From the NCBI RefSeq assembly GCF_010211765.1, contig NZ_PDWO01000003.1:186001-250000 (forward strand): a stretch of 64,000 bases of DNA, read 5' to 3'. The position numbers and the translations under genes are program-made. The DNA comes from Pseudoxanthomonas kaohsiungensis. GTDB lineage: Bacteria > Pseudomonadota > Gammaproteobacteria > Xanthomonadales > Xanthomonadaceae. Of this stretch, positions 123 to 17,973 are shown piece by piece. Every line of letters begins with the position of its first letter. Position 1 is the stretch's first letter. Below the pieces are notes generated by a model. That model did not search any database. It was not told the origin of the DNA and worked only from the letters and a program-made list of their open reading frames with translations.

Positions 123-147
123 ACACTAAATGCAATTCTTTTAGTGT
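123..147. promoter_or_regulatory. Perfect inverted repeat, possible operator
   Basis: ACACTAAA at 123-130 and TTTAGTGT at 140-147 form a perfect 8-bp inverted repeat with a 9-bp centre, in an AT-rich patch between the BrxU-like gene and the gene at 1-99. Extra ACTAAA half-copies lie just to the left. There is no T-run on either side, so an operator is more likely than a terminator. It sits 24 bp upstream of the leftward ATG at 99, where a repressor would act. Confidence 0.35.
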
Positions 148-198: not shown

Positions 199-2022
199 TC
201 AACTCACACCATGAAAGTCGAACAGCCGGACCGCGCGATCAACAAGCTCCGCTGTGCGCTTTTCGATCTGCTCAACGCTCCAGGCATCCGACTTGGCCAA
301 CTCCTCATTGAGCCGCAGGCCATTCCTGTATCCAACCGGCCGGCCCTGCCTGTCCGTACGATCGCGTTTTTCAGCAAAGCTCTTGTTGCCCAGAGTGCTG
401 TTGAAACCCGAAATGGTCAGGTTGCCCAACCTGTGCACATGCACCTGTTGCAACCCCTTCGCTTTCGTCATGTCGCCGCCTGCAATCATGTCCACCCATG
501 CCTCGGGGATGTTCTCGCCCTGGGGAAAGATGTGTTCAATGGTCCAGACGAACTGCTTGTTCTCGAACCGCCACAGGTCCACCCAGGTTTCCCGGGTCAT
601 ACCTTGTTCCGCCAGTGCGCACAGCACGAAACGCGCAACGCCAGCATTCTCCTCGTAGATGGCACCTTCCAGCTTGCCGCGGAACACGTCGTCGGACGCA
701 GACACCGCAAGCAACGTATCGCGAATCGTGATCACGACCTCATCACCGGCCTTGTCAGAAAGCCTGTCAACAATCGACATGAAAAGTCGTGTCAGATCAC
801 GGGTAGGCGGCGTATCGGTCAGGTTGCGACGAACGAAGAAGCACACAAGCAACCGCACGACGGCACTCAACTGCGTTGAATCCAGTCCCAGTGTCTGGCG
901 CTGCATCAGCAGGTACAGCATCAACAGGTGGGAGGGCGCGCCCTGGATACGATCCAGATCCTGCAACGGCTTGTCCAGGGCAGCCCAGGTCGGATCCTCA
1001 TTGCGCCCCAGCATCAACGCATACAAGCGCCCGGCCTCACGAATGTCCTTGAGGTGCTGCTCGGCATTCTCGTTGATCAACTTCTCATAGATCTGGATCA
1101 AGTTGGAGCGCTTAGCCTCCGGACCCAGAGGATCCTTGCGCTTGTCCTCTTCCTTGCGGAATGGCGCATTCAGCCGATCCTTGAACGCGTTGTAGTAATG
1201 TCGGAAAAAGCGTTCCTGGACGGCATAATCATCGCCAAGATCTTCGAGCAATTTCTTCCAAATATCGAAGTAGCGGTCCACCTTGCCGGGTTCATCGATC
1301 TCCAGCCTTGCCAGCAACTTGTTCTTGATCAGATCGATGGCTGTCAGCGGAACGCCGCGATTGTTCAGCGACTCGAACAAGGTGTAGGCATCCGCATGGC
1401 TGGCGACCTCAATCTTCACTAGGCTGGCCTGACTCACCTTCTCAAGGAAAGTCATGATCGGCGCGATCCGGTCCTCATGGCCGTCAAGCATCGCCCTGAT
1501 GCGGGACTGAAAGTACCGGTATGCCTTGAATATCTTCCGATTGCCGGCATAAGACGGCGTGTCGACGTGACCAATGACGCCCGCCTCTGCCAACACAGCG
1601 CGGTAATCGTCCAGATTCCTGTTCTGGATCTGCGGGATCACCCGAAGCTCGTCATCGCCCTTTTTCAGCACCAGCTTGCGCTTGAGGTTGATCAGCTCCA
1701 CACGCTGGTCGTCATCCAGATCCTTATCCTGCACTCTCAGCGCCTGGTACAGCGCAGCAAACAACAGCGACAGCGTGGTCAGGCGCTGCTGGCCGTCGAC
1801 CACTTCCAGACGCTGGATCGCCAGGGTGTCGGTGGTGTGGTTGATGCAGATGATCGAACCCAGGAAGTAACCGGGATCGTTGTCCAACAGGTCGTCAAAC
1901 AAGGACTCCCACGCTTTCGAGCCCCAGGTGTACTCGCGTTGGTAGCGCGGAATGGCGTAGACCACCCGTGCCTCGATGTCGAACAACTGGGAGATCGGAA
2001 AGTTCTTGACGTCCTTGATCAT
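199..2022 (-). CDS. DUF262/DUF1524 nuclease, GmrSD/BrxU-like
   Basis: This 607-residue protein has the two-domain architecture of fused GmrSD-type, modification-dependent (Type IV) restriction enzymes. The N-terminal DUF262 NTPase-like domain carries the signature DGQQRLTT (residues 76-83). The C-terminal DUF1524 His-Me-finger-like nuclease domain shows EHIFPQ followed by HRLGNLT and a GNKSFAEKRD stretch. Length and layout match BrxU, the GmrSD homologue known from some BREX loci, which cuts DNA with modified cytosines. Its ATG overlaps the pglX stop as ATGA, so the two genes are translationally coupled. A hand-counted 60-bp line (1201-1260) is 47% GC, much lower than pglX outside its own AT-rich patch, which suggests a cargo gene acquired separately. 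The family call is firm; the BrxU role is inference. Confidence 0.8.
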   Translation of the reverse strand: MIKDVKNFPISQLFDIEARVVYAIPRYQREYTWGSKAWESLFDDLLDNDPGYFLGSIICINHTTDTLAIQRLEVVDGQQRLTTLSLLFAALYQALRVQDKDLDDDQRVELINLKRKLVLKKGDDELRVIPQIQNRNLDDYRAVLAEAGVIGHVDTPSYAGNRKIFKAYRYFQSRIRAMLDGHEDRIAPIMTFLEKVSQASLVKIEVASHADAYTLFESLNNRGVPLTAIDLIKNKLLARLEIDEPGKVDRYFDIWKKLLEDLGDDYAVQERFFRHYYNAFKDRLNAPFRKEEDKRKDPLGPEAKRSNLIQIYEKLINENAEQHLKDIREAGRLYALMLGRNEDPTWAALDKPLQDLDRIQGAPSHLLMLYLLMQRQTLGLDSTQLSAVVRLLVCFFVRRNLTDTPPTRDLTRLFMSIVDRLSDKAGDEVVITIRDTLLAVSASDDVFRGKLEGAIYEENAGVARFVLCALAEQGMTRETWVDLWRFENKQFVWTIEHIFPQGENIPEAWVDMIAGGDMTKAKGLQQVHVHRLGNLTISGFNSTLGNKSFAEKRDRTDRQGRPVGYRNGLRLNEELAKSDAWSVEQIEKRTAELVDRAVRLFDFHGVS

Positions 2023-5000
2023 TTCTTGCGCTCCCGCGCTTTCTGCTTCTCGGCCAGGCTGAGGTGGTGGTCATTGATGCGGTCGCCTTGCTTGCCGCCG
2101 TACTGCGGGCCGAGGTGGTACCAGGGGGCGGATTCGACGTCCTTGCCGCGGTCCTTGTCCCACTTCAGCTTGGGGCGCTCGCGCAGGACGCCGGCGCCCT
2201 TCTTGCCGACATCGGGCACGGACAGGAAGGGGCGGATGTTGAGGCGCACGCCGTCGTTGAGGTCGGGGTCCCAGCCGATGGGCTGCTGGTCGAGGGGCTT
2301 CCAGCGCACGAAGATGTCGTAAGGCTGCTCGCCTTTGAGGATCAGCTCCAGCTTCTGCTTCAGGGCCTGGGCGGCGTCGAGCTTTTCCTGCGCGCCTTCT
2401 ACGCCAGCCGCAGCGTCCTGGGTCTGGCGGCTGATCCAGTTGCCCAGATACGTGTAGATCAGGGCTTCCAGGGTCTTGGTGTCCAGGCGGTGATAGTTCA
2501 CCAGCACGGCGAAACCGTCGCGCAGGCCGTCCCAGATGTGCCAGATGAAGGGGCGCTGGTGGAACAGCTCGCAATGCTGGGCGAAGAACTTGTCGCGCAG
2601 CCAGCTCTCCAGCGTCTTGCCGGCATAGTCGGCGCTGGCCAGCAGCTGCGTCAGCACGCTGTTGTTCCAGCTCTCGCCATAGGCGGCGGCCAGCAGGTTC
2701 AGCAGGCGATCGGCGGCGGCCTTCTCGCCGCCCACGGGCGGGATACAGACGATGCCGTCGGTGTCGGCGTGCGACAGCAGCGTCTGGCTTTGCGCGACCA
2801 GGGCGCGAGCCTCGTCGGCCAGCTCCATGTCCGCATCGGTTTCCGCCGGCCAGCGGTGGCCGAGCAGGCGGGCGACGGCGATCTGCAGCACGCTGGCCTC
2901 GATGCGCTGCGGGCCGGGTGCGGTCCACTTGGCGTCCTCCTCGTCCCAGACCACTGAGCCGCAGGGGTGCCCGTGGAAGATCCATTGGGTGGGATCGTCG
3001 GAGTACGGCTTCGGCAGGCCGTTGGGATAGCGCTCGGCGGCCACCTGTTGCCAGCGCTCCAGATCAAACGGCACCTTGACCAAGGTGGCGTTGGTGACGT
3101 TCAGCTTCTGATCAATTCGGCGGACGGCTTCGTTGTACTCGGGGGAGGAGCAGAAGCACCAGATGGCGGGGAGATGCCCTTTTACATCTGCCGTGATAAC
3201 AGCTGTGTTGTTGTCAAAAGCCATACCCGTGTAGAGCGTGACTGGCAAGGCTCGCATTGCACTCACAACTATGCCTTTGCGCAGCCATGCATGGGTTTCA
3301 AGGTTTGTAGCGCCCCTCAACTCCCTAATAGCACCGGTGCCATTGCACCAACGTAAGTAAGTTTCTTTACCCCCAAAATGCTTTGAATCAGTAACCGTTC
3401 CACAGTAATCGATCCAAGTTCCGTTCTTTGCACTGAGCTCCCAGAAGCTGACAGTCATCCTTGGCCGGTCGCCACACACCAAGCCATGGTGACTATGCGA
3501 AATTGCGTTCAATAAGGTACCAGTTGCCTCGCCGTTCAACGCCACCCTTGCATCGGGATTTTTCGCCTGCGCCTTCTGGCTTACCGCCACCAACTCGCCT
3601 TCACGCAGCAGCACCGCCTTCTCCTGCGCAACCTTGGGCGCACTCGCATCCACACCGCACATGAGGAATTCGTCCGCCGCCGGGGTGCGGGTCTGGGTCA
3701 GCAGGATGATGAACGCGCCCGCCGCCTGCGAGCTTTCAAAGCCGCCCTCGCCCAGCCGCGCCAGCAGGTTCCATTGCACCCGTTTGAGCAAGGACTCGCG
3801 CTGCTTCTTGTAGCTGGTCAGGAACAGCCAGTTCTGCGGCATCACGATCTGCACCACGCCGCCGTCACCGCACAGTTCCAGGCAGCGCTCCAGAAACACG
3901 TTGGCCAGATCGTTCTTCGCCGCCGGGTAATGGCGTTCGCAGTAATCCCTGAGCACTTCATCCTGCTTGCCACGGGCCAGATACGGAACGTTGGTGATGA
4001 CCAGCTGGTAACGCGCCTCCAGCAGCCGCGCCGCCTCCAGCAGGCCCAGCGCGCTGAGTGCGGATTCGCGCCGGACCTCGCCGTCCTCGCCGACTTCCTG
4101 TTTCAGCGCCGTTAGCAGCAAGGGCTCCAGCAGCGCGTAATCGGCGCTATATAGATCGCCCTTCTGGCGGCTGGGCGAAAGCAGGCTGCCCAGCAGCGGC
4201 GCCTGCGCAAACTGTTGATGCAGCCGTGCCAGACCTTCGCGCAACTGCCCGGCATTGACCGCACCCTCGGGCACCAGCGCCTGCCAGTCCTCCACCTTCG
4301 CGGCCACCTTCAGACCACAGCAGGCAATACGCGGGTTGGGGATGGGGCGCACGCCCAGCGCATGGCCGCGTTCGTCCGGATAACGCCAGGCTTCCAGCGC
4401 CAGCGCGAACACCGCAATCTCCACGCAGCGGGCGTCCAGCTCCAGTCCGTGCAAATTCTCCGCCAGCACCCGCTCCACGGCATCGTGCGCGCTCAGCCCC
4501 TCGGCCGCCATGCGCATCGGCACCAGCATCAGGAAGGCGGCAACCAGGAAATGGCCCGAGCCACAGCAGGGGTCGAGCAGCTTGAACTCGGCCAGCGAGT
4601 CTGCCCAGCCGTCGAACGTTCCTGCCGCAGGGGTGCCGTCTTCCAGCGTGCGCAGGTAGTCCAAGCTCACCGGGCACGGCGTGTCCGGATGGCGCGTGTT
4701 CCACCACGCGCCCAGCGAGTTATGCAGCAGGAAGGCCACCATGTACGGCTCGGTGAACAACTGGGTGACGGCGGGCAGCTCATCGGCACCGATCTTCACT
4801 TCGGACTTGTTGATGGCGTCCTTGTTGTCGGCCTGCCAGAACTGGTAGACCCAGCCCAGACTGTCGGAAGCAGTGAACACTTCCGGCGGCAGGTCGGCCA
4901 GCAACTTTTCCAGCGGAATCTGCACATCCGCGGGCAAGATAAGTTCGAATACCGGCGAGCCGGACTTGAAGATCTGCGGCAGCATGCGCTCGGCCAGCCG

Positions 5001-5393
5001 CCCGGCCAGCTCCCAGCCGTTGCGTGCGCCTTCGTCCGGCGCCAGTTCCTCGCACTCCTCCAGGGTGACGGCTACGCCGTCGAACATCAGCAGCCCGTTC
5101 TCGGCCAGGAAGCGCGCAAACAGCATGCGGTGCCAGTGCTGGTAGGCCACTTCCTGCACCAGACGGGCGATGGTCTGCACCTTGCCGCCATTGAGCTGGT
5201 CACCGAGCTGGCGGCCATGCGCGCGCAGGCGCCGGCGCAGGGCACGCTGTGGCTCCTGCAGGTGCGCCGGCGGATTGGCCTCGCCCACACCCAGTTCGCC
5301 CAACACGGCGCGGGCGCCGTCCTCAGCGAGGCGCCGTGCCTGCTTGACGGTCGATTCCAGACGGTTACGCAGGCTGCGTTCCAAGGGATCCAT
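2019..5393 (-). CDS. pglX: BREX adenine-specific DNA methyltransferase PglX
   Basis: This is a 1124-residue class I SAM-dependent DNA methyltransferase. PglX methylates adenine in the BREX recognition motif, marking host DNA so that the defence system spares it. The SAM-binding motif LLDPCCGSGHFL is near residue 273. The catalytic motif near residue 466 reads TNVPYL, with NVPY in place of the usual NPPY. The region after it should hold the target-recognition part, and DNA at about 3165-3540 is strikingly AT-rich compared with the rest of the gene. It follows brxC by 12 bp with an AGGGAGAG ribosome binding site and overlaps the BrxU-like gene by 4 bp. Position after brxC and size support PglX over a stand-alone Type IIG enzyme. 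Confidence 0.88.
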   Translation of the reverse strand: MDPLERSLRNRLESTVKQARRLAEDGARAVLGELGVGEANPPAHLQEPQRALRRRLRAHGRQLGDQLNGGKVQTIARLVQEVAYQHWHRMLFARFLAENGLLMFDGVAVTLEECEELAPDEGARNGWELAGRLAERMLPQIFKSGSPVFELILPADVQIPLEKLLADLPPEVFTASDSLGWVYQFWQADNKDAINKSEVKIGADELPAVTQLFTEPYMVAFLLHNSLGAWWNTRHPDTPCPVSLDYLRTLEDGTPAAGTFDGWADSLAEFKLLDPCCGSGHFLVAAFLMLVPMRMAAEGLSAHDAVERVLAENLHGLELDARCVEIAVFALALEAWRYPDERGHALGVRPIPNPRIACCGLKVAAKVEDWQALVPEGAVNAGQLREGLARLHQQFAQAPLLGSLLSPSRQKGDLYSADYALLEPLLLTALKQEVGEDGEVRRESALSALGLLEAARLLEARYQLVITNVPYLARGKQDEVLRDYCERHYPAAKNDLANVFLERCLELCGDGGVVQIVMPQNWLFLTSYKKQRESLLKRVQWNLLARLGEGGFESSQAAGAFIILLTQTRTPAADEFLMCGVDASAPKVAQEKAVLLREGELVAVSQKAQAKNPDARVALNGEATGTLLNAISHSHHGLVCGDRPRMTVSFWELSAKNGTWIDYCGTVTDSKHFGGKETYLRWCNGTGAIRELRGATNLETHAWLRKGIVVSAMRALPVTLYTGMAFDNNTAVITADVKGHLPAIWCFCSSPEYNEAVRRIDQKLNVTNATLVKVPFDLERWQQVAAERYPNGLPKPYSDDPTQWIFHGHPCGSVVWDEEDAKWTAPGPQRIEASVLQIAVARLLGHRWPAETDADMELADEARALVAQSQTLLSHADTDGIVCIPPVGGEKAAADRLLNLLAAAYGESWNNSVLTQLLASADYAGKTLESWLRDKFFAQHCELFHQRPFIWHIWDGLRDGFAVLVNYHRLDTKTLEALIYTYLGNWISRQTQDAAAGVEGAQEKLDAAQALKQKLELILKGEQPYDIFVRWKPLDQQPIGWDPDLNDGVRLNIRPFLSVPDVGKKGAGVLRERPKLKWDKDRGKDVESAPWYHLGPQYGGKQGDRINDHHLSLAEKQKARERKK

Positions 5394-5405
5394 GTCGTGC
5401 TCTCC

Positions 5406-8400
5406 CTATCGCGGCCGCACGGGGCCGTTGGCCAGCGCGGACTTGAGTGCTGCGGCGGCCTCGGCCGCCCAGGCGTCCACCTCGTCGGCATTCTGCAAGG
5501 TGCGCTGCGGCAGCGGGACGAACTGCACCTTGGGCTCGCACAGCAGCGCCGCCTCCTCCGCCACCTGGGCAAAGCGGCCGGGCAAGGCGGCGATGCGGTC
5601 GGCCAGGCCGGGCAGTGGGTGTGCCTGCAAGCTGGCCAGTACGTCCTCGGTGGTCTGCACATTGATGGCAGGCGTGTCCGCGAGCGTCAGCTTCTGCGCG
5701 GCCAGCAAGGCGTTGCGCTGCTCGGGCTCCAGTTTGGCCCAGTTGGGGTCGGCATCCAGCCCGTTCATGCCGGCACCATGCCGTTCCGCATAGTCCGCCG
5801 CGTGTCGGTTGAGCTGTTCACGCAGGGCCTGGGTCAGCTCGTTGGCGAGACCGGGCACCGGATCAGGCTCGGCCAGCAGCTGCCGGCTGGCTTCGATGGC
5901 CGCCACCTGGGCACGGATGGCCTCGGTCGCGTCCAGCGGTTCGGCGTGTCTGGTAAGCTGCTTCAGGTTGAGCCATGCGGGCCAACGCGACTCGATGCGG
6001 GCGGACTGGTCCTTCCACTGCTCGATCAGTTCCGCCAGCGTGTCGCGCTGGTTGTGCAACGCCTGCAGCTGTTCGTTGCCGACGCTGCGGCGCAGGTCGT
6101 CGATCACGCTTACATCCGGTGAGGCCGGCTTGGGTGCCTCGCCGCCGACCCGTTCGGACAGGACGCGCAGCTTTTCCAGGAACCCTGCCACCGAAGCGAG
6201 TTCTTCATTGGGCCTGGCGTTCACTTCAAGCAGCTGCAACAACTTGCGGATCTGGATGCGCTGCGTCGCGGTGATGGTGGTGGCCTCGACCCGGAAGCCG
6301 GTCTTGCCGATGGCCTTGCGTTCCAGCGTCTTGAACTCGACCGGCTGGCCGCGTTCGTCCTGGGCGCGCAGGGCGCCAGCCACCAGCAGGGCGAACAGCG
6401 CACCGTCCACGGCATCGCCGGACCAGCCATAGGGCGCACCTTCAAAGCGGGCACGGACTTCGGCGCCGGTCTTGCCGCCGGCAATGAAGCCCAGCACGGC
6501 CTTGCAGACCGGGTTCTTGTCGGCCTCGCCGTCCTCGCCGACGGCCTTCAGCGCATCCGGCGCGCCCTTGCGGGCGTTGTCGAATACCTTGCTCCAGCCA
6601 GCGTTGTCGGCCAGGCCGAACTGCGGATACAGGCGCAGCAGGGCGCTGTCGGCGGCTTCGCGCAGCATCGCCGCAAGGTCGCTGCCCACCACCTCGGTGC
6701 CGCCACCCTGGTAGACCCGCGCGTCATTGAAGCAGTCGCGCAGGATCGCCTGGATGCGGTTCTCGGCATTGCGCAGGGTGGTCTGCATCGCCTCGAAGGC
6801 TTCGCGCGTATCGGCGGCGGCACTGGCACCCGGCGTGCCACGCTCGTCGATGGTGTTGCGCGCGGCCTTGTACTCCATCAACTGGTTGCGCAGGTCGTCG
6901 CCATGGCGCTTGGGCAGGTACAGGAAAACCGTGGGCGAGGCACTGCCTGCCTGTCGCGCCTCGGCCTTGACGGTGTTCTCATCGGTGCTCCAACCATCAC
7001 GCACCCAGACGTAGATGCGCTGGTCGGCATCCTTGGGCAGCTCGGCATCGAACAGCGGGCTGACCTCGCGCGAAACCTTCGCTGCGCCCTGGGTCAGCGA
7101 CAGGCGGCCGACCGTGTCCGCGAACATCTTGCGGATGCGGGTATCGCGCTCATGCTCCAGCGTATGCGCCTGACTGGCCAGGTTGGCGCGCTGGTTCATG
7201 AAGCTGTCGTTCCAGGCGGCGCTTTCCTCGGTCTGGATGCGGTATTCGGCATCGACCCTGATCAGCAGCTCGCAGGCATCGAGCACCGCGGGCAGGCGAC
7301 TGCGCAGGGCGCTGGAACCAGCGGGAAGGTCCACCACCAGCAGGTCGGCCAGACTGTCTACGGTGGCGCGGACCCCCAGCTCAGTATTGGCCGCAGCCAC
7401 CTTGTTGATCAGGAACACCAGGGCGCAGGCACGGGCCATCAGCTGCTGCTCTTCATTGCCGCGCATCCAGGCACTGGTCTTCTCGTAAACCTTGCGCGGC
7501 AGCTGGCGCATCTGCAGCAGGTTCTCGGCGCTGTCGAAGAACACGAAGTCGGCCGGCACCACCGAGCCCAGCGGCTCGTCCAGGTTGGTCTGGATAACCT
7601 TGTGCACCACCGACAGCTGGTTGCGCAGCTGCGCGGCGGTGCCGGTCTGGTCGAGCACCTTGAGCGCTGCCTCCCAGAAGCGGCGGCGCACGGGTAGCAG
7701 CGGGTAGTCCTGCGGGAAGACGGCCTGGTCTTCCGGCCGGTGGGCGATGGTGGTGCCCTGCAGGTGGCGCGAGATCTCGCCCAGGTTGCGGCCCATGGTG
7801 TCGGCAATCGTCGGAATGGTCTCCGGCTTCTTGGCCAGGATGACCTTGCGGATTACCGCTTCCACATCGGCATCGGACAGCTCGACGAGAACGGTGAAGC
7901 GGCCCTGCAGGCGAGCCAGGTTGGCGGTGCCGGTCACGGCGGTCTGGCCGGTGCCCACGAACAGCAGCTTGCCGCCGATGTTTTTGCTGCAGGCCTCGAC
8001 GGTTTCCTGCACATCCATTGAGCGCTGCGGATCGCTGCCGATGTACTGCTGCACCTCGTCGAGCACCACCAGGGTCAGCGGGAACTTGCCATCCCGGGTG
8101 AGCGACTGACGGATGGTCTTGATCATGTCGTCGCTGGAAACGTCGCTCACGGCCGGGAACATCTGCGTGAGCGTTTCGACACAGGCATTTCGGGAGGCGA
8201 AGCGGTCGGGCCAGACGGCGATCAGCGCATCGGCGATGCCATCGGCCACGTAGAAGTTGTCCAACTCTTCCTGCCAGTCATAGCCGGCGGCTTCGACCGC
8301 ATCGCGCACTTCCTGCAGCCGCCCTTCCTTCATCAGCCACATGACGAAGCGGGCCACCGGGTAGCCTTCCGGGAGACCGGCCGACTTGAAGATGATGCGC

Positions 8401-8852
8401 AGCAGGGCCAGGCGCACGCTGCCGGTGGCGCCTGCACCGAGCGTGCCCGAGGCTGCATGCAGACCGCCATGGCGCTTGCCTTGCGCACTCAGTTCCTTGA
8501 GCGGGTCGGCCACCGAAGCGGGCAGGTCGGCAATCCCGCGGGGCGTGGCGCCGTCGGGGAACGGGGCGTCCTGCCACAGGGCACGCATCATCTTGACCAG
8601 GTGCGATTTACCCGAACCGAAGAACCCGCTGATCCACACGCCGGGCTGTTGCGGCTGGTCGATGTTGCGCAGGAACGTGTCCAGGATATGGGCCAGTCCC
8701 TTCTCGTACTGACCGTCGCAGACGAAGGTCTCCAGCTCATAGCGCAGAACGGCCAGCGCTTCCGCCGAGGCATCATCGTTGACACTGGCCACACCCTGGT
8801 TGACCAGCTTCCGCTCGGCCGGGTCCTTGAGATAGATGTCGCGATTGAGCAT
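5406..8852 (-). CDS. brxC: BREX P-loop ATPase BrxC
   Basis: This 1148-residue AAA-type ATPase is the large BREX core component of the BrxC/PglY family. A Walker A motif, GFFGSGKS, lies at residues 76-83, after the N-terminal stretch MLNRDIYLKDPAERKLVN that is typical of BrxC. A Walker B-like TLVVLDEVQQY follows near residue 265. The C-terminal half is helical and charged, as in the family. It starts 27 bp after brxB with a GGGGGAG ribosome binding site and is followed by pglX after 12 bp, so the genes form one operon. No frameshift or missing motif is seen. The role in sensing or blocking phage DNA replication is family knowledge. Confidence 0.92.
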   Translation of the reverse strand: MLNRDIYLKDPAERKLVNQGVASVNDDASAEALAVLRYELETFVCDGQYEKGLAHILDTFLRNIDQPQQPGVWISGFFGSGKSHLVKMMRALWQDAPFPDGATPRGIADLPASVADPLKELSAQGKRHGGLHAASGTLGAGATGSVRLALLRIIFKSAGLPEGYPVARFVMWLMKEGRLQEVRDAVEAAGYDWQEELDNFYVADGIADALIAVWPDRFASRNACVETLTQMFPAVSDVSSDDMIKTIRQSLTRDGKFPLTLVVLDEVQQYIGSDPQRSMDVQETVEACSKNIGGKLLFVGTGQTAVTGTANLARLQGRFTVLVELSDADVEAVIRKVILAKKPETIPTIADTMGRNLGEISRHLQGTTIAHRPEDQAVFPQDYPLLPVRRRFWEAALKVLDQTGTAAQLRNQLSVVHKVIQTNLDEPLGSVVPADFVFFDSAENLLQMRQLPRKVYEKTSAWMRGNEEQQLMARACALVFLINKVAAANTELGVRATVDSLADLLVVDLPAGSSALRSRLPAVLDACELLIRVDAEYRIQTEESAAWNDSFMNQRANLASQAHTLEHERDTRIRKMFADTVGRLSLTQGAAKVSREVSPLFDAELPKDADQRIYVWVRDGWSTDENTVKAEARQAGSASPTVFLYLPKRHGDDLRNQLMEYKAARNTIDERGTPGASAAADTREAFEAMQTTLRNAENRIQAILRDCFNDARVYQGGGTEVVGSDLAAMLREAADSALLRLYPQFGLADNAGWSKVFDNARKGAPDALKAVGEDGEADKNPVCKAVLGFIAGGKTGAEVRARFEGAPYGWSGDAVDGALFALLVAGALRAQDERGQPVEFKTLERKAIGKTGFRVEATTITATQRIQIRKLLQLLEVNARPNEELASVAGFLEKLRVLSERVGGEAPKPASPDVSVIDDLRRSVGNEQLQALHNQRDTLAELIEQWKDQSARIESRWPAWLNLKQLTRHAEPLDATEAIRAQVAAIEASRQLLAEPDPVPGLANELTQALREQLNRHAADYAERHGAGMNGLDADPNWAKLEPEQRNALLAAQKLTLADTPAINVQTTEDVLASLQAHPLPGLADRIAALPGRFAQVAEEAALLCEPKVQFVPLPQRTLQNADEVDAWAAEAAAALKSALANGPVRPR

Positions 8853-8879
8853 GACTCCCCCTGAGTAATGCGAGGTCGA

Positions 8880-9428
8880 TCAGGATTGATCCGCCGTGAT
8901 GGGTACGGCGAGGTAGTTCCAGCCGTCGTACCCGTCCAGCAGGCGATAGTTGTTGTTCTCGAAGCTGCCCGGGAAGAACACGAGCAGGCGGCCACGGACA
9001 TGCGGCGCAAACGCGTCGACCACATCCTTGACCTTGCACAGGCCGAATACCGATCCCACCCCGCTCACTGCCACCACGCTGTTGCCGTCAGCGCCGGTCT
9101 CTTCAACGAATGCCGCGAACCGCTGGGCAAGGAAGTCCAGGTACTTGGGCAGCAGGGTGCCCAGCAGCTCGGGCTTCTCGAAGTATTTGGGCGCATAGCG
9201 CTGGGAACCCAGCCATTGGGCAAACGTATCGGTCAGGTCGAATTGCTGCCAGGCATGTCCTGCGGCACGGGTGGCCAGCTCGAACTCCTCGACCTTCGCC
9301 CTCAGCGACCTCTCCTCGGCAGGGTCATACACGCAGAAGACCACACGCTGCGCAGCAGCCACGTCGTCCCGCCAGGGCGTGCGGATGAAGCGCTCCCAGG
9401 ATTGCAGCAGGCGCTTAAGCTTGCTCAC
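8880..9428 (-). CDS. brxB: BREX protein BrxB (DUF1788)
   Basis: This 182-residue protein matches the DUF1788/BrxB family in size, in position between a brxA-like gene and brxC, and in sequence features: an N-terminal LLQSWERFIRTPW, a central GVGSVFGLCKV and a C-terminal LLVFFPG followed by NNNYRLLDGYDGWNY. The FPG-NNYRLLDG-WNY block is characteristic of BrxB proteins. The start is GTG, inside the 3' end of the upstream gene (14-bp overlap). BrxB is a core BREX component needed for defence; its biochemical activity is not established. Confidence 0.9.
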   Translation of the reverse strand: MSKLKRLLQSWERFIRTPWRDDVAAAQRVVFCVYDPAEERSLRAKVEEFELATRAAGHAWQQFDLTDTFAQWLGSQRYAPKYFEKPELLGTLLPKYLDFLAQRFAAFVEETGADGNSVVAVSGVGSVFGLCKVKDVVDAFAPHVRGRLLVFFPGSFENNNYRLLDGYDGWNYLAVPITADQS

Positions 9429-10194
9429 GGATCACGGTCTCCTCGCCGGCACGGATCAGACGAGGGAAGGCGACTTCCATCACGTCGGCAACCCGCTTGA
9501 ACTCGATCCAGCCCTTGCGCGCCGCGTCCTCGGCCAGGCCGATGCATACCCCCACGGGGGCATCCTGGGCTTTCATGAAGCGGGTCTGGAACAGCTCGGG
9601 TCCGCGGGCGCCGGAGGCATGTCCCAGGAGCAGGGCGTACGCCACAGACCCGGCAGTGGGCCGGGCTTGCTCGCGCTGCTTCCGGGCCCGGCCAGCGAGG
9701 TGGCCGGCCTGGGTCAGGGAGGCATTGATGTTCTGGGCGACAGATTTCAGGGTCGCCGGGCTGAAGCGGTCCGGGAATTTGCCGGCCATGAAGGTCTCGA
9801 CGGACTCTCGGGACACGGTCGACCCCACCGGCGCAGCCCAGACATGCGGCGCAATCGAGGACAGCAGGCCGTCGCGGGCCAGGGCGGCACTCAGGGCAAT
9901 GAGGGGGCGGCCCTCGGTGTCCTTGGTCCAGAACCAGCGCATGCCGCGGAAGACTAGCTGGTCAGGATTCACCCCATACAGGTCAACCAGGTGCCCCCAG
10001 GTCAGTGCCCGGGTACTGGTCGAGCGCTTGGCCAGGCAATTCAGGTCCACCACGGCTTGGCGATAGTCCGCCTGCCCTGCATCTTCGGGACAGGCATCGA
10101 GCAGGAGGCCCAGCTCGGCCAGCATGATGGTGCGGGACGCGTGAGCGCCCCCAGCGGTGGTCTTGAACCCCAAGTCTGGGAGAAGCATGAGCAT
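9415..10194 (-). CDS. brxA: BrxA-like BREX protein (DUF1819-type)
   Basis: The first gene of the BREX operon encodes 259 residues. BrxA (DUF1819) is a small, helical, DNA-binding-type protein usually found directly upstream of brxB. Here TTAGGAHASRTIMLAEL at the N-terminus, the VDLNCLAKRSTSTRAL stretch and LTWGHLVDLYGV resemble the order of conserved blocks in BrxA-like proteins. It is longer than the ~200 residues usual for BrxA, so it belongs to a longer subgroup or is a functional replacement. ATG is at 10194, with a second possible ATG at 10188; neither has a clear ribosome binding site. It overlaps brxB by 14 bp. Confidence 0.65.
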   Translation of the reverse strand: MLMLLPDLGFKTTAGGAHASRTIMLAELGLLLDACPEDAGQADYRQAVVDLNCLAKRSTSTRALTWGHLVDLYGVNPDQLVFRGMRWFWTKDTEGRPLIALSAALARDGLLSSIAPHVWAAPVGSTVSRESVETFMAGKFPDRFSPATLKSVAQNINASLTQAGHLAGRARKQREQARPTAGSVAYALLLGHASGARGPELFQTRFMKAQDAPVGVCIGLAEDAARKGWIEFKRVADVMEVAFPRLIRAGEETVIREQA

Positions 10195-10412
10195 GAATTC
10201 TGGTCTGCGACCCGGCCTGGAAGGCCTGGAAGTCGCATGGCGACAATCTTCCGGGTAGACAGGGGATGCTAGCTGCTTTGCCGCTCGGCAGTCGATGCGG
10301 CGGGGCCGCCCGCGGGCTTGCAGAGCCTTCGCATGGCGAAGTCAAGGGGGCCAGAGCTCGCCCAGGCGGCCGTATCTCAATGGCTGAGACTGGATGGCGT
10401 GACGATCGGACG

Positions 10413-12062
10413 ATGCGCCAAGCCCAGCCCGACAATGCTGCGACGCTCCGTGTGCCCTTCGGGCTGCGCGACGGGCGGATGTGGTCCCCACGCCAGGTCG
10501 CCAACGGGCTGGCTTGCGGCTGCACCTGCCCAGCCTGCGGCAGCCCGCTCCAGGCCCGGAACCAGGGCACCAAGCGACGGGCCTACTTTGCGCACCATTC
10601 CGATCACACATGCTCGGGCGCCTACGAGTCGGCCATCCACCGCATGGCGAAGCAGCTGATCTGTGAGCGACCGCGCCTCACCCTCCCGGCTTGGAATGGT
10701 ACCGAGGACATGCCAAACCCACCGACCGCAACCGATGTCCGCGGCGGGAAGCTTCTGGGCCACCGCGTGGACTATCCCTCCCGCACCGTGCAGCTCCGGA
10801 AAGCCCGTGCCGAAGCGAGCATTGCAGACTACCGCCCTGATGTCCTGGCCGAGGATGAGGACGGGGAACTCCTGATCGAGATTCGAGTCTCCCACGCGGT
10901 CACTGACCTGAAGACCAGGAACGTCCAGTCTGAAGGCCGCCGGATGGTCGAAATCGACCTGTCCGGCGTGACAGCACAACAGGCTGAGGATCCTGCCGTC
11001 TTCGAGGCGCTGGTTCTGGACACGCCCCGGAACCGGTCCTGGATCTCATGCCCACCTGCGACTGAGGCCTGGCGTGCTGCCCGCGATGCCCTTGCCGTCA
11101 GACTGGCGGCAAGGAACCGGAAGATCGCGGACAACCAGGAGCGGCGCAACGAACTGGCCAGGCTCAAGGCGCAGAAGGAGCAGGAACGGGAGATCTGGCT
11201 TGACCAGAAGAAGGCGGAGCTCCGCGAACCTCATGTCGATGACCTGCGCTACCTGCTACGGGTCACCAGGCCCGAGTCCATCACCGAAAAGTACGCGGCG
11301 CTCCAGCAACGGGACGAGGGCAAGGCTGACACCCTCTTGGCAATGATCCCGGAAATCCTTCACCCAGTGCTGAGGAGCTCCGGCGGCCCTGCCTGGGCCT
11401 ACCAGGCCCACTACCTGCTCTGGCAAGCGGCCATGTACCTACACTTCATCGACGGCAAGCCCGTTGGCCACCCTGTCAGCCGCATGGAGCTTGGACGCTG
11501 GCTGAGAGCGACCTATGGCGTCGATCCAACCCTGTGGCGCCTGTTCATGACTCAATGGCAAGGGCGTAAGGAAGCGCAGCGGCTGGGGCGCAAGAAGTGG
11601 TCCCTTTTCGTCTGGTACTTCACCGAAGCAGAGAACCGGGCGATCCCGAACTTCTTCAAATGCGTGGACGGATTTGTAACCAGGCTCGTGGGAACAGGCG
11701 TCTTGGAGCTTGATCCCGAGCCTGGCGGCGATCTCGTTGTTGCCGCCACACCGGGAGATGGCTCGCCGACCCGTGATCGGAAGCTCCTCCCGACACCGCC
11801 GCATATCGACCCCCTGCTGGCTACAGGGGTGGATTCCTACATCGACCGCTGGATCTCACACTCGAAACTTGGAGTGGGCATTGTCCGCGAGAGAGTCGCT
11901 AAAGGGAGCCCGACGTACCGAGTCTGGTTCAACGATGCGAGATGGCGGACCGTCTGGCTGGGAAATCCAGAAAGCGGGGAATGGAAGCTTCTTGGCGAAC
12001 GAGACACTTCCGATCAAGCGCCCAGCTTTCCGGACCTCGGCGGACCGCAATCAGGTCGATAG
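10413..12062 (+). CDS. CoiA-like nuclease-domain protein
   Basis: From the ATG at 10413 this is about 549 residues. The N-terminal part holds a zinc-ribbon-like CGCTCPACGSPL, then RRAYFAHHSDHTC and an ESAIHRMAKQLI helix. A PD-(D/E)xK-like core follows, with YRPDVLAEDEDGELLIEIRVSH, where D and E-x-R are candidate catalytic residues. This order is that of CoiA-family competence/nuclease proteins. A charged coiled segment with LKAQKEQEREIWLDQKK comes next, then an unrecognised C-terminal domain. The gene is divergent from brxA across about 220 bp, so it could share BREX regulation. The open frame extends upstream to 10266, but the residues before 10413 are low in character. Function in defence is inference. 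Confidence 0.6.
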   Translation: MRQAQPDNAATLRVPFGLRDGRMWSPRQVANGLACGCTCPACGSPLQARNQGTKRRAYFAHHSDHTCSGAYESAIHRMAKQLICERPRLTLPAWNGTEDMPNPPTATDVRGGKLLGHRVDYPSRTVQLRKARAEASIADYRPDVLAEDEDGELLIEIRVSHAVTDLKTRNVQSEGRRMVEIDLSGVTAQQAEDPAVFEALVLDTPRNRSWISCPPATEAWRAARDALAVRLAARNRKIADNQERRNELARLKAQKEQEREIWLDQKKAELREPHVDDLRYLLRVTRPESITEKYAALQQRDEGKADTLLAMIPEILHPVLRSSGGPAWAYQAHYLLWQAAMYLHFIDGKPVGHPVSRMELGRWLRATYGVDPTLWRLFMTQWQGRKEAQRLGRKKWSLFVWYFTEAENRAIPNFFKCVDGFVTRLVGTGVLELDPEPGGDLVVAATPGDGSPTRDRKLLPTPPHIDPLLATGVDSYIDRWISHSKLGVGIVRERVAKGSPTYRVWFNDARWRTVWLGNPESGEWKLLGERDTSDQAPSFPDLGGPQSGR

Positions 12063-16545: not shown

Positions 16546-17786
16546 TCAGGATGAGATCCGGCGGAGTACAGGCCTGATTGGGACAACATTGCTGTTGCCC
16601 GACAGGGAATCCAGATAATCCGCCCACGCCTGCATCATCTCGGTGCGCTCCGGCAGGTATTCAGCATGGTTGTAGCTCGCACGAACCTTGTTCCCCCCTG
16701 GTGGGACAGCTGCCGCTCCACGACATCCTTTCGCCACCCGACCGAGTTAAAGTGGGTCGATGCGGTGGCCCGGAACCCGTGCGCGGAGAAGTAACCGGCG
16801 TATCCCATGCGCTCCAGGCATCGATTCAGTGTCGTCGGGCTCATCGGCCGATGGGGATCGCGCTCGTTCGGAAAGAGCAGCGGCCGTTTCCCCGTGAGTT
16901 CCTTGAGCTGAGTGAGCAGTTGGACGGCTTGACGACTCAGCGGTACGACATGCGCAATGCCCCGCTTCATCCTGCGATCGGGGATTTCCCACAGCGCCCC
17001 GTCCAAGTCAAATTCAACCCACTGCGCCTCCCTCAGCTCCTTCGGCCGCACGAAGGTTAGGAGGAGAAGCTTGAGCGCAGTCTTCACCTGCGTACCGCTG
17101 CGCGATGCCTCAACCTTCTCGACAAGGCCGGGAAGTTCACTCTGGGCCAAGGCTCGCTTGTGCCTTGTCTTCGGCTTGGTAACAGCACCCTTGAGCGCCG
17201 CAGCCGGATCATGATCTGCTCGCAGGGTAACCACTGCGTAGCGAAAGATCGCGGAAGACCACTGCCGGATCAGAATCGCGATGGTTGGCGCACCCCGCTT
17301 CTCGACCCTCTTCAGGATTGCGAGCAAATGCGCCGCCTGAACCGCCCTGACTGGAAGCCTTCCCACGTCCGGATAGACGTCCTGCGCCAGCACCGTTTCG
17401 ACTTGTGACAGGTAGTAGGCCGACCAGCCTTCCTTGTTTTCTTCAACCCATTCCTTGGCGACCGCTTCGAATGTGTCAGCAGCTTGCTTCGCCACCACCA
17501 ATCGCTGCGCTTTTCGATGGGCAGCTGGATGTATTCCCTTCTTGACCAGCTCGCGCGCAGCGTCCCGCTGGGCACGCGCCTGCTGAAGGCTGATTGCCGG
17601 ATATTCGCCCAGGGCAAAGAGGTTCTCGCGTCCGTCGATGCGGTACCTGTAGCGCCAACACTTGGATCCAGTTGGCTGCACCGCCAGGAACAGGCCAGCT
17701 CCATCCGTCAGCTTGTAGGGCTTGTCAGCACGCTTCGCATTGCGAATGCGCGTGTCAGTCAGTTGCGCAGAAGATCGGGCGGCCAT
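16546..17786 (-). pseudogene. Tyrosine integrase with a frameshift in a G6 run
   Basis: This is an integrase of the DUF4102 plus phage-integrase family, the usual enzyme of genomic islands. The first frame (ATG 17786) gives the N-terminal arm-binding domain with KLTDGAGLFLAVQPTGSKCW, then the catalytic domain with RPKELREAQW and HGFRATASTHFN, up to VVERQLSHQGG. It then reads into out-of-family residues and stops at 16635. The expected ending, NKVRASYNHAEYLPER with the catalytic Tyr, lies in another frame and stops at 16546. One extra G in the run at 16693-16698 would restore a ~413-residue protein of normal length. This may be a true mutation, slippage or a sequencing error. As read, the tyrosine nucleophile is lost. 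Confidence 0.85.
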
Positions 17787-17824: not shown

Positions 17825-17973
17825 CCTTTTCTCTCGGCTGCGAGCAAACAACACAAGACGCCTTCGGACTACAAATGGCTGTAGTCAAAGGACATTTTGA
17901 ATCACTTCGGAGTAGCTCGGAACCCGTCGGACATCGATGCTAGTTATCGATCATCAGCAGCATGGCATTCCCC

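Follow-up and report, generated by a model that had tools for sequence, protein, structure and literature searches.

Background

Auxiliary effectors are encoded inside or beside the core genes of bacteriophage exclusion (BREX) loci, and those described include GmrSD/HNH, OLD-ABC (PARIS-like), Schlafen and HEPN proteins (PMC12839542, Rakesh and Krishnan 2026). The type 1 BREX locus of pEFER contains one of them, BrxU, a single-chain DUF262/DUF1524 enzyme, and BREX and BrxU are reported to give complementary protection (PMC8565348). Here we describe a BREX locus of Pseudoxanthomonas kaohsiungensis found in a stretch of 64,000 nucleotides (the window, positions 186,001 to 250,000 of contig NZ_PDWO01000003.1; G000:C33:186001-250000 in our files) and in its continuation to the left. 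It is probably a complete type 1 BREX carried by an integrative island, in which the slot between pglX and pglZ holds a putative type IV nuclease and an AbiE/MenAT-like pair, i.e. a winged helix-turn-helix (wHTH) protein and a nucleotidyltransferase (NTase). Coordinates marked L001 equal window coordinates plus 19000; unmarked ones are those of the window.

The pair has features in common with the MenAT and AbiE systems, namely an NTase fold, a wHTH-bearing partner and inverted repeats upstream (PMC10435456). Judging by titles cited in that paper, MenA4-type antitoxins and AbiEi regulate themselves via inverted repeats or an operator. The RptR island offers a parallel, as a modification-based defence operon (a type I restriction-modification system) there houses a toxin-antitoxin, DarTG2, and a repressor acts on the promoter. 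It differs from our locus in its repressor, toxin and host system, and RptR controls the promoter of the island (PMC12255303).

The operon continues to pglZ and brxL

Left of the window the operon runs on without a change of strand, gmrSD being followed by a wHTH gene, an NTase gene, a type B pglZ, brxL and then trpG. The wHTH gene (L001 18110-19099, minus strand; 329 aa; MarR_2 at 27.0 bits, at the cut-off) codes for a putative antitoxin and autorepressor. The following NTase gene (L001 17349-18116, minus strand; 255 aa), coding for a putative toxin, shares 7 bp with the wHTH gene and 4 bp (ATGA) with pglZ. PglZ (L001 14998-17352, minus strand; 784 aa) matches the type B model NF033450 with 914 bits for a cut-off of 400. 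The brxL gene (L001 12953-15001, minus strand; 682 aa) overlaps pglZ by 4 bp, and its product matches PF13337 (433 bits) and TIGR02688 (440 bits, cut-off 329.3); its score with TIGR02653, 617 bits, is slightly under the cut-off of 628. The trpG gene (L001 12228-12806) lies beyond brxL.

A reading of the window made from its sequence only had noted that no pglZ was in view, and had proposed that the nuclease gene stood in place of pglZ or that the system was a reduced variant. The first statement is true of the window; on the contig, pglZ starts 1.6 kb past the left edge. The leftward search for pglZ and brxL that was then suggested found both on the same contig and strand, beyond a three-gene insert, and the two proposals fall with it, as pglZ and brxL stand in the usual type 1 order. 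The next leftward gene, described as not PglZ-like, is the wHTH gene, whose opening 33 codons occupy positions 1-99 of the window. A PF08665 search of the whole genome returned nothing at E ≤ 0.001; this result is falsely negative, because the PglZ of this locus itself reaches only 17.4 bits with that model, against a cut-off of 25.

The six core genes (brxA, brxB, brxC, pglX, pglZ and brxL) form one operon-like run in which the three-gene insert separates pglX from pglZ. With pglZ and brxL on the continued operon, the locus therefore has the standard type 1 BREX order plus the insert. The motifs that we checked in BrxC, PglX, PglZ and BrxL are all present. The wHTH gene is 99 bp from gmrSD, and all other spacings in the operon are short or overlapping. 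Judged by its gene content, the type 1 BREX of this locus is complete and has a type B PglZ, and the apparent loss of pglZ is an artefact of the window edge.

The genes within the window are as the sequence-only reading had them, with brxA, brxB, brxC, pglX and the DUF262/DUF1524 gene all on the minus strand. Its claim of tight spacing is also borne out: brxA and brxB overlap by 14 bp, gaps of 27 and 12 bp separate brxB from brxC and brxC from pglX, and the ATGA that couples pglX to gmrSD is present at 2019-2022. Four of the products match PADLOC models. These are BrxA (9415..10194, minus strand; 259 aa; PDLC02450, 318 bits), BrxB (8880..9428, minus strand; 182 aa; 260 bits, and 28.6 bits with PF08747 for a cut-off of 26.8), BrxC (5406..8852, minus strand; 1148 aa; 1561 bits, and 909 bits with NF033441; Walker A GFFGSGKS) and PglX (2019..5393, minus strand; 1124 aa; 1698 bits; motif I DPCCGSGHF, motif IV NVPY).

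PglX scores under the NCBIfam BREX-1 PglX cut-off (352.7 versus 500 bits). Despite this shortfall we read it as a member of a divergent PglX subfamily, because of its PADLOC score and because NVP[YF] occurs in 20 of 20 relatives. That count comes from the type-B loci examined; the motif reads NPPY in the type-A enzyme of pEFER. NVPY as a sign of decay was rejected on the same ground.

Among the closest known arrangements is that on the 1YdBTEX2 plasmid of Pseudomonas veronii (L011), a type 1 BREX with a type B PglZ. Its six core genes and their order are those of our locus, and it likewise has a GmrSD enzyme between pglX and pglZ. Instead of the wHTH-NTase pair, its slot has a DUF932 gene (L011 17027-18004), which precedes gmrSD. 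It also has a WYL-domain (BrxR-like) gene upstream, whereas no WYL match was obtained among the proteins of our island that were scanned.

The island is inserted at trpG

The BREX locus is carried whole by an integrase-bearing island of 24,157 bp inserted at the 5' end of trpG. Homology around trpG stops at this 5' end in 12 of the 12 other genomes of the genus that were searched. One of them, G222, provides the empty site, as its left flank joins directly the sequence of our right flank, at window position ~17,941. An 18-bp direct repeat stands at both ends of the island, and the G222 stretch shown has a single copy. The right copy, TCGATCATCAGCAGCATG, is at 17947..17964; the left one (L001 12790-12807, outside the window) is at the 5' end of trpG. 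The island codes for a tyrosine integrase of 383 aa (16635..17786, minus strand; PF00589, PF13356 and PF22022). The attachment site is the protein-coding trpG, with the repeat covering the start codon, and not a tRNA gene.

Contents of the pglX-pglZ slot in type-B loci

To assemble a set of type-B loci, we searched three overlapping sets of genomes (369, 398 and 398) with the type-B PglZ model, retaining matches over the cut-off, and added one plasmid search (6 records). Together with our own locus, the set comprises 19 loci with readable pglX and pglZ. Weaker matches under the cut-off, one fragment (G885) and three loci in which pglZ but not pglX could be read (L128, L132 and L148) stand outside the set.

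The slot is filled in 15 of the 19 loci; in the other four, pglX and pglZ are no more than 201 bp apart. A GmrSD enzyme occupies it in four loci (our own, L011, L130 and L144). Other contents are an AAA ATPase with a Schlafen-domain gene, AIPR, a Hsp70-containing set, a TOTE-like helicase set, McrBC (L149), and an AAA ATPase with a gene annotated, by annotation only, as 'restriction endonuclease' (L150). An AAA_21/AAA_15 ATPase followed by a gene of ~200 codons also occurs, which we read as PARIS-like. These contents fit what has been published on the auxiliary effectors of BREX loci, in an article whose main text uses 'Nucleotidyltransferase' once, for minimal NTases fused to HEPN, and 'AbiE' nowhere (PMC12839542).

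A GmrSD enzyme inside BREX is of a known kind, that of BrxU. For the wHTH-NTase pair in BREX, we found no description in the titles and abstract openings of the open-licence literature, which is weak evidence of absence. The interest of the locus lies in the repeated position of this pair before pglZ, and not in a missing gene.

The GmrSD-type nuclease

The nuclease (199..2022, minus strand; 607 aa) combines DUF262 and DUF1524 in one chain, with PF03235 (GmrSD_N) at 130.7 bits and PF07510 (GmrSD_C) at 56.6 bits. Its top PADLOC labels are Orf5 (253 bits) and HEC-06 (231 bits). The motifs DGQQR (residues 76-80) and EHIFP (residues 496-500) correspond to the BrxU positions Q101, R102, D474 and H475, where mutants indicate the roles of the motifs (PMC8565348). 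From its family, the enzyme likely cleaves modified DNA.

The likeness to BrxU that had been proposed for this protein holds for its architecture, a single-chain DUF262/DUF1524 enzyme in a type 1 BREX (PMC8565348). It does not extend to the sequence, with 30% identity over 102 aa, nor to the location, as brxU lies between brxC and pglX in a locus with a type A PglZ, and our gene after pglX in a locus with a type B PglZ. None of the five matches of a PDB sequence search at E ≤ 0.01 is BrxU, and BrxU orthology was rejected on this and the low identity. The closest plasmid relative is the enzyme in the pglX-pglZ slot of the P. veronii BREX (56% identity, 98% covered). Both of these type-B-linked GmrSD enzymes (window 199-2022; L011 18001-19794) have an Asp residue at the position of BrxU Ser42.

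The GC content of gmrSD is 0.569, compared with 0.63-0.67 in the other eight operon genes, which suggests that gmrSD joined the operon later.

The wHTH-NTase pair

A scan of genome contigs yielded 304 relatives of the NTase, of which the best 80 were used in our analyses. A wHTH gene is directly upstream of the NTase gene in all 80 loci, with an overlap of mostly 4-7 bp. In the order, the NTase occurs in 8 of 398 genomes (one of them with a fragment only), and the wHTH gene adjoins it in all eight. A profile search for the wHTH protein gave 17 matches in 15 of the 398 genomes; 12 of these loci were retrieved, and five matches were not. Four of the 12 have no NTase gene within 1.5 kb (L186-L189; two of these represent one locus in related species), i.e. 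there are orphan members of this regulator family. An NTase accompanied by the wHTH protein in 80 of 80 loci, and a wHTH protein that itself is sometimes alone, form the asymmetry expected of a toxin and its antitoxin. Relatives of the NTase are also found on plasmids (49 records) and on viral contigs (20 in IMG/VR, L153-L172).

Six NTase residues, G23, T41, D43, D45, E98 and K162, are invariant in 57 sequences, and the NTase of our locus shares G23, D43, D45 and E98. Fold searches were made with models of the relatives in L086 (pLDDT, the predicted local distance difference test score, of 83.3 for the NTase and 91.5 for the wHTH protein). The NTase models as a MenT/AbiEii-type fold, with matches to MenT3 (Z 10.7, 202 residues aligned, 4.1 Å), MenT1 (Z 10.6), JHP933 (Z 9.1) and MenT4 (Z 8.3). 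It also matches the AbiEi antitoxin 6y8q at a Z score below the meaningful level (7.5, 130 residues aligned). With Foldseek alone, viral poly(A) polymerases rank first. At E ≤ 0.5, 44 of 57 relatives match AbiEii (PF08843) weakly, the best of them at 2.4e-6; our own NTase has no match at E ≤ 0.1. The wHTH model has a MarR/ArsR-like winged helix, chiefly at residues ~142-225 of 340. The pair is probably a divergent AbiE/MenAT-like module, a putative toxin-antitoxin that regulates itself.

In the best 80 loci, pglZ stands beside the pair in four, and the other recurrent neighbour families occur in at most six loci each. The figure for pglZ is a minimum, because the queries were limited to our own BREX proteins and a part of the contigs is short. 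In most cases the pair is found outside BREX loci. Clustering into families, without a domain search, gave no dominant neighbour partner.

A conserved palindrome precedes the wHTH gene

The sequence-only reading had also flagged a palindrome ahead of the gene at 1-99, which in the end was its most informative detail. The palindrome, ACACTAAA-N9-TTTAGTGT (123..147), a putative operator followed by further TTTAGT runs towards the gene, is real, given that 0.01 chance matches are expected in the window at up to three mismatches. Upstream regions could be compared for 75 of the best 80 loci, five being dropped as too short or masked. Perfect 9-bp arms with a 9-bp spacer were found in 40 of the 75, against 1 of 1500 base shuffles; dinucleotide-preserving shuffles gave 2 of 1500.

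The usual palindrome of the family is CACGATAAC-N9-GTTATCGTG, and three of the 40 perfect cases differ from it in sequence (L070, L072 and L087). The family pattern occurs once each in 47 of the best 80 loci, and in most of them an outer GTTA follows after 8-10 bp; as the pattern was derived from the same loci, this count is a description and not an independent test. The BREX-linked copies retain it at nine of nine arm positions in L032 and at eight of nine in both L086 and L097. The palindrome would be an operator overlapping a promoter; pglZ and brxL are located downstream of it in our locus.

No second site for the palindrome of our locus was found in the window or in the genome at up to three mismatches. 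There is hence no sign that the wHTH protein controls the brxA promoter.

Entry of the pair into BREX loci

Kineobactrum sediminis (L086) and a metagenome-assembled genome (MAG) of the Opitutales (L097) also have the pair in the pglX-pglZ slot; in the latter it stands after an AAA ATPase and Schlafen set. In L086 the possible in-frame starts of pglZ are 10743 and 10749, which overlap the NTase gene, and 10767, which is 1 bp past it. In a maximum-likelihood tree of 66 NTases, our sequence and those of L086 and L097 require three changes, of which at least two are forced by well-supported branches. A common origin of these BREX-linked pairs is disfavoured, as a single clade for the three is rejected by the approximately unbiased test (p-AU 0.02). 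With L032 added, the count rises to four changes, at least three of them forced; the count was made with and without this contig because it has a pglZ fragment only. L033, whose NTase frame contains a stop codon, was kept out of the tree.

In both cases 500 of 500 shuffles gave counts as low, which means that the few rows are not clustered and nothing more. The NTases of our locus and of L086 are on long branches, and hence their places in the tree are unsure. The trees point to at least two entries of the pair into the pglX-pglZ slot.

Two other loci, L023 and L094, were rejected as BREX-embedded pairs. Only pieces of pglX and gmrSD, coding for 49 and 50 residues, adjoin the pair there; they were left uncounted and are perhaps relics. 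In L030 and L032, near-identical MAG contigs, the pair is flanked by repeats of ~0.4-0.8 kb that are about 95% identical. L032 carries an extra 1.2 kb with the pglZ fragment, for which assembly or a mobile element is a possible cause.

Proposed roles and alternative explanations

Following what is established for the BREX family, PglX would mark the host DNA, and BrxA, BrxB, BrxC, PglZ and BrxL would stop phage DNA without the PglX mark. By analogy to BrxU and GmrSD, some of whose key motifs it has, the GmrSD enzyme, with NTP hydrolysis by DUF262 and a DUF1524 nuclease, would cut modified-cytosine phage DNA that BREX may miss. Growth arrest would come from the NTase, which would add nucleotides to a substrate, most likely tRNA ends. 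Its wHTH partner would counteract this toxin and, by binding the palindrome at 123-147, repress the pair. The pair would then serve the island as an addiction element and as a last-resort abortive response.

A number of observations weigh against parts of this reading. The pair occurs in one of the 19 type-B loci, our own, and hence is a rare partner of BREX. In two MAG contigs, L032 and L033, it precedes a broken or fragmentary pglZ, and the pglX of L097 was matched piecewise in two frames. The NTase model has its top fold match in 5uvd, an NTase-like protein of fungal origin (Z 11.8), with aminoglycoside NTases as high as Z 9.2; the fold therefore does not fix the substrate. The wHTH protein lacks the AbiEi/MenA layout, as this partner, of ~330 aa, has the wHTH domain in the centre and not at the N terminus. 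We call the pair AbiE-like rather than AbiE because of this departure from the AbiEi/COG5340 layout. The NTase family shows weak matches to the AbiEii Pfam family. The outer parts of the protein gave no clear structural match in what was barely a search.

Further points of this kind concern the nuclease and the palindrome. Asp44 of the nuclease aligns with BrxU Ser42, which is essential, and the S42D substitution abolished phage resistance (PMC8565348). The chemistry or specificity of our enzyme may hence differ from that of BrxU. The palindrome of our locus keeps the arm spacing of its family in a sequence unlike the consensus, and no consensus promoter or terminator was found between gmrSD and the start of pglZ.

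Within the reading of a complete BREX with a nuclease and an AbiE/MenAT-like pair in its slot, the pair may have no functional tie to BREX at all and be a stand-alone selfish toxin-antitoxin in a permissive site, for which we see a slightly better than even chance. The rarity of the association, with pglZ adjoining in four of the best 80 relatives and a single pair among the 19 type-B loci, fits this view, as do the scatter of the BREX-linked copies over the tree and the occurrence of the NTase on plasmids and viral contigs. It accounts less well for the insertion, at least twice, into the same slot, with pglX and pglZ both beside the pair and in reading order. The 4-bp overlap between the NTase gene and pglZ here, and a palindrome kept in all four copies in which it could be checked (our locus, L032, L086 and L097), would also fit a closer connection.

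Such a connection could be a switch, in which the wHTH protein represses an internal promoter at 123-147 that drives its own gene, the NTase gene and also pglZ and brxL through translational coupling. If a phage depleted or inactivated this repressor, the BREX effector would rise and the toxin would be freed together, and the repeated insertions would reflect selection for this wiring. We regard this extension as rather unlikely. If the promoter of the module does drive pglZ and brxL, a toxin-antitoxin regulator would control a modification-based defence.

It is unlikely that the pair is an induction switch, consisting of a regulator and a signalling or modifying NTase, instead of a toxin-antitoxin. 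The strong conservation of the palindrome, the wHTH proteins encoded alone, and a fold common to aminoglycoside NTases and poly(A) polymerases would be compatible with it. However, many of the top fold matches are MenT toxins and 44 of the 57 relatives match AbiEii weakly, and the partner-first order, the short overlap and the lack of any NTase found without a wHTH gene fit a toxin-antitoxin.

That the BREX locus has been wrecked by insertions and is decaying seems very improbable. Three genes have been inserted, and the relatives L129, L032 and L033 are visibly broken or split, but all six core genes of our locus are open, of normal length and with the expected motifs, and the spacing is tight or overlapping except for the 99 bp before the wHTH gene. 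Finally, a reduced BREX in which the nuclease replaces pglZ can be dismissed with near certainty: it drew on a window without pglZ and on the empty PF08665 search, whereas that model misses this PglZ, the 914-bit pglZ and brxL start 1.6 and 4 kb past the edge on the same strand and contig, and an ATGA overlap joins pglZ to the preceding gene.

With the suspected reduced BREX struck off, the locus illustrates how a window edge, together with a Pfam model that misses a PglZ type, can mimic gene loss. What it brings to attention is a wHTH-NTase module, sparsely annotated and preceded by a conserved palindrome, which appears to have entered BREX operons more than once, right before pglZ.

Other genes

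The remaining cargo of the island includes a MobI-family protein, an AAA_25 ATPase and a CHC2 zinc-finger protein. Divergent from brxA is a gene for a 598-aa protein (window 10266-12062), which has a weak match to CoiA_N (26.2 bits, cut-off 26.3).

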